Shown in pieces: positions 18,453 to 21,650 of a DNA stretch of 46,887 nucleotides. This DNA comes from Gammaproteobacteria bacterium (GTDB taxonomy: Bacteria > Pseudomonadota > Gammaproteobacteria > Steroidobacterales > Steroidobacteraceae), in assembly GCA_009692285.1 (NCBI GenBank), contig SHZO01000002.1:1-46887 (forward strand), in the 5' to 3' direction. The translations under genes were made by a program, and so were the position numbers. Within the stretch, counting starts at the first letter, position 1. Each line of letters starts with the position of its first letter. A model generated the notes under the pieces. That model had not been told where the DNA came from. It ran no database searches and saw only the letters and a list, made by a program, of their open reading frames with translations.

Positions 18453-19772
18453 TTAGGTTTGACTGGTGGGTTGCTTTTGCATAGTGCGATAGTGTTTCAT
18501 TGCGCGCCCTAGCAGTACTGCTGCTAGCGGTGCCGCTACGGCCGCTACAGCACTGACGCCTTGGCCAATTCTTTGATCGTCGTGTAGTATATAGTCTGAT
18601 ATTACTGATGCAGCAGTTGCACCAAAACCAATTCCACTAAGATTAATGATTAATAAATACAGCGCAGAAGTTCTTCCCCGAAGACGATTGGGCGTGACCA
18701 TCTGTAAAGCTGCTGAGGCAGCTGCAAAGGGGAAACTTGAAAAAAATAATGTTGGTGCAAGTAGCGCCAAAGTCCACTCGGGACGAGAGACTTGAAAGGT
18801 AGCAATGGCGAGTGGCCACAGCGCTAGGGCACTCCACATGCCCACTTGTAATTCAGCGTCTTGAATGCCGTTAGCGCGCAAGCGGTCTGCCATCAGACCT
18901 CCCCCTAAAATTCCAGCCGCTCCCGCCACAAACATGATTGGCCCATAAGTCCATGCGATTTCTGCTGGAGCAAAATCATGGGCACGAATTAGATGTGACG
19001 GCAACCAAAATGCAACTGCATTGAAGAGCAGCGTCAGCAATGAAATGCCCAAAGTAAGATTTAAATAAAATGGAGAGTGTTCGCGAACATACTTTAGGAC
19101 GCTTAAAAAAGTCTCGGTAGAATCGACAATTACCCCTTGGCGCTGAGGTTCTTTTAGGGTTAATAACCAAAGCGAGACTAAAATCCCAGGAGGGCCAAGC
19201 AGTAAAAAAGGTATTTGCCATGAGCGCACTTCACCGATCAAGGGGAGGTGGAGACTGGTAAGTGTGCCGATGTATTGCGCTAACAAGCCGGTCAGCATGA
19301 TTGCGAGTCCAATACCAAAATATACGCCCATCGAAAATACACCAAGCGCCTTGCCGCGCCGCTGCGGTGGAAAGTAATCTGACAGCATGGAATATGCTGA
19401 AGGAGCTAGAGCAGATTCTCCAACACCAACCCCAATTCGCCCTGCAAAAAGAGCTCCATAACTAGTAGCTCGGCCACATAAGGTGGTCATTAGGGACCAA
19501 AGAAATATGCCTCCCGCGATAATATTGCGGCGGCTACTGGTATCCGCCCAACGACCGATGGGCCAAACGCCAATTACGGTATAGCACACTGCAAAGGCTA
19601 GGCCGTGTAGTAAACTTAATTCAGTGTCGCTTAAACCTAGATCGGCTCTGATCGGCCCAACAAGCATTGTGAGGATTTGGCGGTCTATGTATGAGAAGAG
19701 GTAAGCGACCATTAAAACAAATACCGCGTACCATGCTTCACGGGGCTGTACCCAGTTATCAGATGATGGCAT
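18453..19772 (-). CDS. MFS transporter (Spinster-like)
   Basis: YLFSYIDRQILTMLVGPIRADLGLSDTELSLLHGLAFAVCYTVIGVWPIGRWADTSSRRNIIAGG; start taken at in-frame ATG 19772 so it does not overlap the upstream gene. Confidence 0.9.
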   Translation of the reverse strand: MPSSDNWVQPREAWYAVFVLMVAYLFSYIDRQILTMLVGPIRADLGLSDTELSLLHGLAFAVCYTVIGVWPIGRWADTSSRRNIIAGGIFLWSLMTTLCGRATSYGALFAGRIGVGVGESALAPSAYSMLSDYFPPQRRGKALGVFSMGVYFGIGLAIMLTGLLAQYIGTLTSLHLPLIGEVRSWQIPFLLLGPPGILVSLWLLTLKEPQRQGVIVDSTETFLSVLKYVREHSPFYLNLTLGISLLTLLFNAVAFWLPSHLIRAHDFAPAEIAWTYGPIMFVAGAAGILGGGLMADRLRANGIQDAELQVGMWSALALWPLAIATFQVSRPEWTLALLAPTLFFSSFPFAAASAALQMVTPNRLRGRTSALYLLIINLSGIGFGATAASVISDYILHDDQRIGQGVSAVAAVAAPLAAVLLGRAMKHYRTMQKQPTSQT

Positions 19773-19801
19773 TGATATAAACCTTGGCGATGGATTAAAT
19801 C

Positions 19802-20650
19802 TTAGTAGTTTGGCGTCGGAGGTAACGGCTGCCCGTAGGGCGCTAGTTCGAGCGGCAAAATCGGTTGATGTGTTGGATTCCAAGAGAAAGGTTTTTTAAC
19901 AGTGTCAAATGTATTTACTAAGGGGCCATTGATGGTACGTACAAACAAGTTATATCCCGTATCTGTACCGGCAGGGCCGTGATAGATGTCCTCACGCCAC
20001 CAACAATAACCACCGCGTTGCATGCGACCTAAATCGCCCCAAACATAATCACCTTCGATGGTATAGAGCTCCTCTACCATTGGATGTGTCCACTGTGGCT
20101 TGGCCATCCCAGGGGGTGTGCGATGCGGCGGGGAGGAGTATAAAAAGGATGTCTCACCTGTGTAGGGGTTGGTGCGTAGAGGCTTGATGGCAACACCGCG
20201 CGAAAGTTGTGGGTCGACTAAACCTGGATCCCATTCCATCGCCAGTGGGTTGACATACTCTACTAAAAGCTTTGGATCAAATGTTGTTGTCGTAGCAACT
20301 AGACCTAAAGTGGGCACTCCGTAGAACATAGTCAGTAAAACCGCGCCATCGTAGCTTGCAGTTCGATCACGTATGTAGCCTGCAGGTAAAAAACCATAGG
20401 AGTGTTTTTCATATAAGCGGTCATTTATTTCAATCGCACCATCGAGCACGAAAAATTCTTCGTGTGTGAGTAGATGCTCAGGTGTGCGGCGTGACCAACC
20501 AGGGCTGTAGCGTATGACGCAGGTTGAGCTGCCATCATTATCATCCTGGCTCAGCATTTTGAATTCGACGTCAGTACGGGCATTACCATAGAAGTTTTTG
20601 GACCAAGGAATCATTTGAGTTTGTACAAACATGATGTGTGGACGCGCCAT
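19802..20650 (-). CDS. Bicupin-like protein of unknown function
   Basis: Two cupin-like segments: HLLTHEEFFVLDGAIEINDRLYEKHSYGFLPAG and HPMVEELYTIEGDYVWGDLGRMQRGGYCWWREDIYHGP. Confidence 0.7.
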   Translation of the reverse strand: MARPHIMFVQTQMIPWSKNFYGNARTDVEFKMLSQDDNDGSSTCVIRYSPGWSRRTPEHLLTHEEFFVLDGAIEINDRLYEKHSYGFLPAGYIRDRTASYDGAVLLTMFYGVPTLGLVATTTTFDPKLLVEYVNPLAMEWDPGLVDPQLSRGVAIKPLRTNPYTGETSFLYSSPPHRTPPGMAKPQWTHPMVEELYTIEGDYVWGDLGRMQRGGYCWWREDIYHGPAGTDTGYNLFVRTINGPLVNTFDTVKKPFSWNPTHQPILPLELAPYGQPLPPTPNY

Positions 20651-20668
20651 AGCTGCCTCTAGAAATAG

Positions 20669-20721
20669 GGTAATAAAAAAATTTTATGTTTGGTAAGGTA
20701 TAAACATAACGCTTTATTACC
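20669..20721. promoter_or_regulatory. 53-bp nested inverted repeat in the divergent promoter region
   Basis: Outer arms GGTAATAAA (20669-20677)/TTTATTACC (20713-20721); inner arms TTATGTTT (20684-20691)/AAACATAA (20702-20709); both pairs perfect and centred within 1.5 bp of each other. Confidence 0.8.
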
Positions 20722-20756
20722 ACCTTACTCGTCTTTGATGTAAATTTACCAGCTTA

Positions 20757-21650
20757 ATGAGCACCCAGCAGATTAAACTATTCGATTCGCCGCTCTGGCT
20801 AGATCACGTGGGCTATCTCGGTGGATCACTGGAGGCGTTGCAAGGCAACTGGCAGCGCTTAGGATTTACGACAACACCGGCACAAACATTGATGCGCCAA
20901 AATAGCCACACCGGAGAGTTGGTTTCTTTAGGGCAACGCAGTGCACATGTCGTGTTACCACAGGGGTATATTGAATTCAGCGAGTTACTCATCGCTGACC
21001 CTGAGCACCATCTTGCTCCGTGGCTGCATCGGGGCACTGGGCTTCATATTTTGGCACTGGGGAGCGACGATGTGCTGGCCGCACATGAGACTACTTCTGC
21101 ATTGCCATTGAGCGCGACAGGCACTGCTTCGCGCTGTATTGAATATGGCACGAAACATGGGGCTGCACGATTTATCTGGTTCATGCTCCAGGCCGAGGCC
21201 TCACCAGAGGGTTTGCTGTGTGTGGTACAAAATCTGAACCCTGAATTAGTTTTCCAAGCGACTGTACAGACTCACCCGAATGGAGCGCAGGCGGTGTCTG
21301 AAGTAGTGGTCTACTTCGAGAAACCAGAGCTGGCTCTGGGGCGATACCGTTCTTTACTACACATGGAGCCTGTACAAATTGAAATGGATGCATGGCAATT
21401 CCAGCTCAGCCGAGGTGTCCTTACACTTTGTTCTAGTGCGACACTGAGCAGGCGCTTTGGCCCAGCACGGTTCTCCCCGGGGTTCTTACCGGCACCTTTT
21501 TTTGCGGCCTTGGTCATTGAGGTCGCCGAACTTTCTGTGGCCCGTGAGTGCTTGCAGCGGGCTGAAGTGCCCTTTAGAGAAACTATCGCAGGTTTACAGA
21601 TTAGCCCATTACAGGCCACCGGCACACATTTGCTTTTAGCGCAAGCTTGA
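20757..21650 (+). CDS. Glyoxalase-like (VOC superfamily) protein
   Basis: LDHVGYLGGSLEALQGNWQRLGFTTTP...GYIEFSELL resembles the Glyoxalase_3-type VOC fold. Confidence 0.7.
   Translation: MSTQQIKLFDSPLWLDHVGYLGGSLEALQGNWQRLGFTTTPAQTLMRQNSHTGELVSLGQRSAHVVLPQGYIEFSELLIADPEHHLAPWLHRGTGLHILALGSDDVLAAHETTSALPLSATGTASRCIEYGTKHGAARFIWFMLQAEASPEGLLCVVQNLNPELVFQATVQTHPNGAQAVSEVVVYFEKPELALGRYRSLLHMEPVQIEMDAWQFQLSRGVLTLCSSATLSRRFGPARFSPGFLPAPFFAALVIEVAELSVARECLQRAEVPFRETIAGLQISPLQATGTHLLLAQA

Follow-up and report, generated by a model that had tools for sequence, protein, structure and literature searches.

The question raised by this locus is whether a 53-bp inverted repeat, consisting of one pair of perfect arms nested within another, is a regulatory site for the divergent genes that flank it, or a coincidence of base composition. 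The genes and arms are arranged as follows in the window, which is the whole 46,887-nucleotide stretch of DNA analysed, corresponding to one 46.9-kb contig:

18453 to 19883, minus strand: MFS transporter, encoded second in the operon, with a match to MFS_1
19802 to 20650, minus strand: bicupin protein of 282 aa, with matches to Pfam Cupin_7 (two stretches) and DUF4437
20651 to 20756, no strand: divergent intergenic spacer of 106 bp, with the cupin-MFS operon (minus) on one side and the VOC gene (plus) on the other, presumed to be a bidirectional promoter region
20669 to 20677, plus strand: left outer arm, GGTAATAAA
20684 to 20691, plus strand: left inner arm, TTATGTTT
20702 to 20709, minus strand: right inner arm, AAACATAA on the plus strand and TTATGTTT on the minus strand
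20713 to 20721, minus strand: right outer arm, TTTATTACC on the plus strand and GGTAATAAA on the minus strand
20757 to 21650, plus strand: VOC (glyoxalase-like) protein of 297 aa, with a match to Pfam Glyoxalase_3

The spacer is delimited by the ATG of the cupin gene, which ends at 20650 on the minus strand, and that of the VOC gene, at 20757 on the plus strand. Both genes point away from it, and the sequence-only reading was therefore right to regard it as a divergent promoter context. That reading's geometry, of perfect 9-bp outer and 8-bp inner arms that are near-concentric within a 106-bp divergent spacer, is likewise exact: all nine positions of the outer arms pair, as do all eight of the inner arms, and the centres of the two pairs (20695.0 and 20696.5) are 1.5 bp apart. 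As regards the earlier suggestion that these may be tandem or cooperative operators, the outer and inner pairs differ in sequence, and a check of the helical phasing of the arm spacings found no consistent pattern. A third, weaker pair (GTAAGGT at 20693-20699 and ACCTTAC at 20722-20728) is off-centre and overlaps the nested repeat. The motif GGTAA/TTACC occurs four times in the spacer, with these copies partly being the nested repeat itself; four copies were reached in 2 of 2,000 shuffles, a count that was made post hoc, and some 5-mer with at least two G/C positions reaches at least four copies in 47 of 2,000 shuffles. The spacer has a GC content of 31%, relative to 48% across the window, and was the most AT-rich among 16 divergent spacers sampled from the same genome. 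The MFS gene as listed begins at a TTG and shares 82 bp with the cupin gene; a start at the ATG at 19772 is likelier.

The interpretation we tentatively prefer, at about even odds, is that the repeat, a real but weak palindrome, is an operator peculiar to this lineage. The repeat would lie within an AT-rich bidirectional promoter region, driving cupin-MFS leftward and VOC rightward from putative promoters; both promoters must lie where the palindrome is, and it would be bound by a regulator, dimeric or oligomeric, whose gene is at another place in the genome; once bound, this regulator may repress or modulate one or both directions. Observed directly are the palindrome, where it lies, that it occurs once and that relatives lack it; promoter positions, binding by a protein, regulation and the regulator's identity are inferred. 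Nearly as likely is that two short, perfect arm pairs have become concentric by chance in an AT-rich spacer full of A/T runs, and have no function. The probable explanations are an ordinary switch site or an AT-rich coincidence, because the repeat is missing from relatives that have this gene pair, and no second copy was found in the genome. Weighing these two accounts depends on the rarity of the repeat, the promoters it may overlap, and its distribution within and between genomes.

An operator would be expected to be a perfect or near-perfect inverted repeat within an intergenic spacer, as is the 9/8 nest. Such a nest was not generated in any of 3,000 dinucleotide shuffles of the spacer, in which a 7/7 nest appeared five times and any single arm of at least 9 bp appeared 109 times. 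When whole windows were shuffled in 200-bp blocks, a 9/8 nest was present in 2 of 1,000, and a nest with an arm sum of at least 17 in 8 of 1,000. This excess over local-composition shuffles counts for the operator, and against chance. However, single arms of at least 9 bp spanning no more than 60 bp were at background frequency (7 observed, 6.8 expected), and nests of 7/7 or longer arose in 184 of the 1,000 block-shuffled windows (18%), both of which are in keeping with coincidence. Across a 259-kb background, comprising 20 stretches of the genome and the window, there were four 7/7 nests where 1.55 were expected, and only the present one attains 9/8. Hence the nested repeat is rarer than chance under a narrow definition, yet this class of feature was picked post hoc, after 47 kb had been read.

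Position is the second argument for the operator, and against chance. Operators are to be expected in spacers between divergent genes, such as that in which the nest falls, and these 106 bp must hold two promoters; weakly, the case is also served by hexamers that overlap the arms:

20681 to 20709, minus strand: weak candidate promoter of the cupin-MFS operon, TTATGT (20709-20704), 17 bp, TAAAAT (20686-20681)
20690 to 20718, plus strand: weak candidate promoter of the VOC gene, TTGGTA (20690-20695), 17 bp, TTTATT (20713-20718)

The former candidate, approximately 31 bp upstream of the cupin ATG, would overlap both inner arms, while the latter would overlap the right outer arm. Both placements are guesses, as none of the promoter hexamer scores in the spacer exceeds those of shuffled sequence, which counts against the operator.

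Also against it is the single-copy state of the repeat, which is as expected of a coincidence. The available genome (1.39 Mb, 83% complete) has one copy of the spacer, and one match each to the outer-arm pattern and to the inner-arm pattern without mismatches. The genome-wide motif scan that had been proposed as a check returned a single site in 1.39 Mb, with no sign of a regulon. Allowing up to three mismatches, the inner-arm pattern had 9 matches, compared with 22 for a reversed control pattern. A site with two mismatches, on another contig (C53), was considered as a second operator and rejected as not credible; it coincides in part with the end of a transporter gene. The single site is nevertheless compatible with an operator, because single-site operators exist.

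A further observation against the operator comes from relatives. The back-to-back VOC/cupin pair is kept, with a short divergent spacer, in nine other genomes, eight of the genus (G003, G006, G009, G010, G011, G013, G016 and G019) and one of the family (G047), and the order leuS-VOC/cupin-MFS-degQ-lnt is common to several relatives. Neither arm pair is present in any of these nine divergent spacers, the outcome that the sequence-only reading had itself named as contrary to its proposal, and one that fits a chance origin. The nearest single arms differ by 2-4 mismatches for the outer arm and 2-3 for the inner, the spacer regions are GC-rich (56-71%), and aligning them reveals no conserved block at the site of the repeat. 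Arm absence is not a final test, as the relatives compared are all distant from the window's species, with cupin orthologues in the genus being 76-79% identical (VOC homologues are 37-50% identical), and a true operator could have turned over. The original interpretation of the site is partly supported, an operator being about as likely as not.

Other short palindromes are present in some of the sister genomes, among them CCGCGG/CCGCGG in G003 and G013, and AGCCTAGCG/CGCTAGGCT in G016, to which one in G011 is related. Spacer sequence is therefore each lineage's own. In G016 (L076) and G011 (L067), a GC-rich palindrome around AGCCTAGCGTGTTTCGCTAGGCT lies in the divergent spacer upstream of the cupin gene, and is partly retained in G010; it is possibly a promoter or operator of the G016/G011 lineage.

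Control of divergent pairs from a shared palindromic region has precedents. PecS, a MarR-type regulator, controls a divergent gene pair from palindromes in the shared intergenic region (PMC6391409). The pecS-pecM locus resembles that in the window in having divergent genes, intergenic palindromes and a transporter gene on one side. However, its regulator gene is part of the pair, and its two 18-bp pseudo-palindromes are separate, with sites found across relatives (PMC6391409), whereas the window's locus has no adjacent regulator gene, and its arm pairs are concentric and not conserved. The original statement that no regulator gene is adjacent is true for the immediate neighbours within the window.

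The second precedent is the Lrp/AsnC protein PA2577, which exerts palindrome-based control of a divergent pair (PMC8707732). PA2577/PA2576 shares with our locus an AT-rich divergent intergenic region, an inverted repeat and a transporter gene (PMC8707732), and the likeness extends to an Lrp/AsnC gene at the cupin/VOC locus in some relatives. In G001 (L072), G012 (L064), G017 (L078) and L075 (assembly Ww125), this gene separates the VOC gene from a TonB-receptor or cupin gene, with the G012 and G017 proteins being 66% identical to that of G001. Given a regulator gene at this position in relatives, a local regulator can control transcription of the cupin/VOC locus, which counts for the operator. 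One narrower and improbable version of the operator reading would make the repeat a remnant, or a site bound in trans, of an Lrp/AsnC-type regulator lost from this lineage. In favour both of this version and of the operator in general, G001 has an AT-rich 40-bp inverted repeat, CTGTAAAT...ATTTACAG, in the Lrp-TonB spacer (L072:2547-2586), directly upstream of the Lrp/AsnC gene, for which it is a candidate autoregulatory site; moreover, binding of a protein of the Lrp type to a divergent spacer that is AT-rich and contains a pseudo-palindrome has been described (PMC8707732). Against it, the G001 and window repeats are different sequences, the Lrp spacers of G012 and G017 lack a similar repeat, and relatives with the divergent pair that have no Lrp gene also lack the repeat. 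Unlike PA2577/PA2576, the window's locus has no Lrp/AsnC gene, and the best match of the E. coli 15-bp Lrp consensus to the spacer (13/15) is hardly above shuffles, being equalled by 19 of 500 one-strand shuffles. Nor did the window's genome yield an orthologue of the locus-specific type: the one Lrp/AsnC match detected, on another contig (C21), is 37% identical to the G001 protein, and no similar repeat lies in its upstream region. These findings also weigh against the operator in general. The Lrp link is a lead, not a result. Separately, a TonB-dependent receptor gene precedes the cupin gene in G001, G012 and L075, which suggests a TonB receptor-cupin-MFS uptake operon in these lineages.

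A more elaborate form of the operator reading, to which we likewise attach a low probability, would treat the arm pairs as two concentric operators with a shared centre, at which a single oligomer, or else two competing regulators, encoded elsewhere, would set both directions; this lineage may have been rewired in this way once it lost the local Lrp gene. A search of the literature for nested operators found nothing specific.

It is very improbable that the repeat works by folding, as a cruciform or as an RNA structural element such as an attenuator or riboswitch. A 62-nt stretch is predicted to form a DNA hairpin of about -8 kcal/mol, slightly more stable than shuffled sequence (z about -2.1 to -2.5), but interrupted by a 6/3 internal loop and closed by a 10-nt end loop. 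The best 62-nt fold of the spacer ranks only 22nd among 42 intergenic regions, a middling stability that leaves the earlier suggestion of a cruciform unsupported, and is in line with a chance origin of the arms. An Rfam scan placed no family on the repeat, with a sub-threshold xanthine riboswitch match falling off-site, inside the cupin gene; no terminator-like site was found in the spacer, and both start codons are too near for a long leader. The notion that a small mobile element, with terminal repeats like those of a MITE, has entered the spacer can be dismissed almost outright, as, although the inverted repeat is confined to one lineage, neither a sequence search nor the outer-arm pattern found a further copy in its own genome, and the flanks have no target duplication.

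Should the repeat be an operator, as we tentatively favour, it would offer one handle on the control of an uncharacterised cupin-MFS/VOC set that uncultured gammaproteobacteria of the Steroidobacteraceae type have conserved. If it is not, it exemplifies a striking single-genome palindrome that is missing from all relatives possessing these genes. Most of the relatives in which the cupin gene is present are metagenome assemblies under the label Steroidobacteraceae or Gammaproteobacteria, and no relative of the cupin was found among viral contigs. In two loci from assemblies labelled Rhodospirillaceae (L083 and L089), three cupin paralogues are clustered in mixed orientation, and therefore the family has expanded there.
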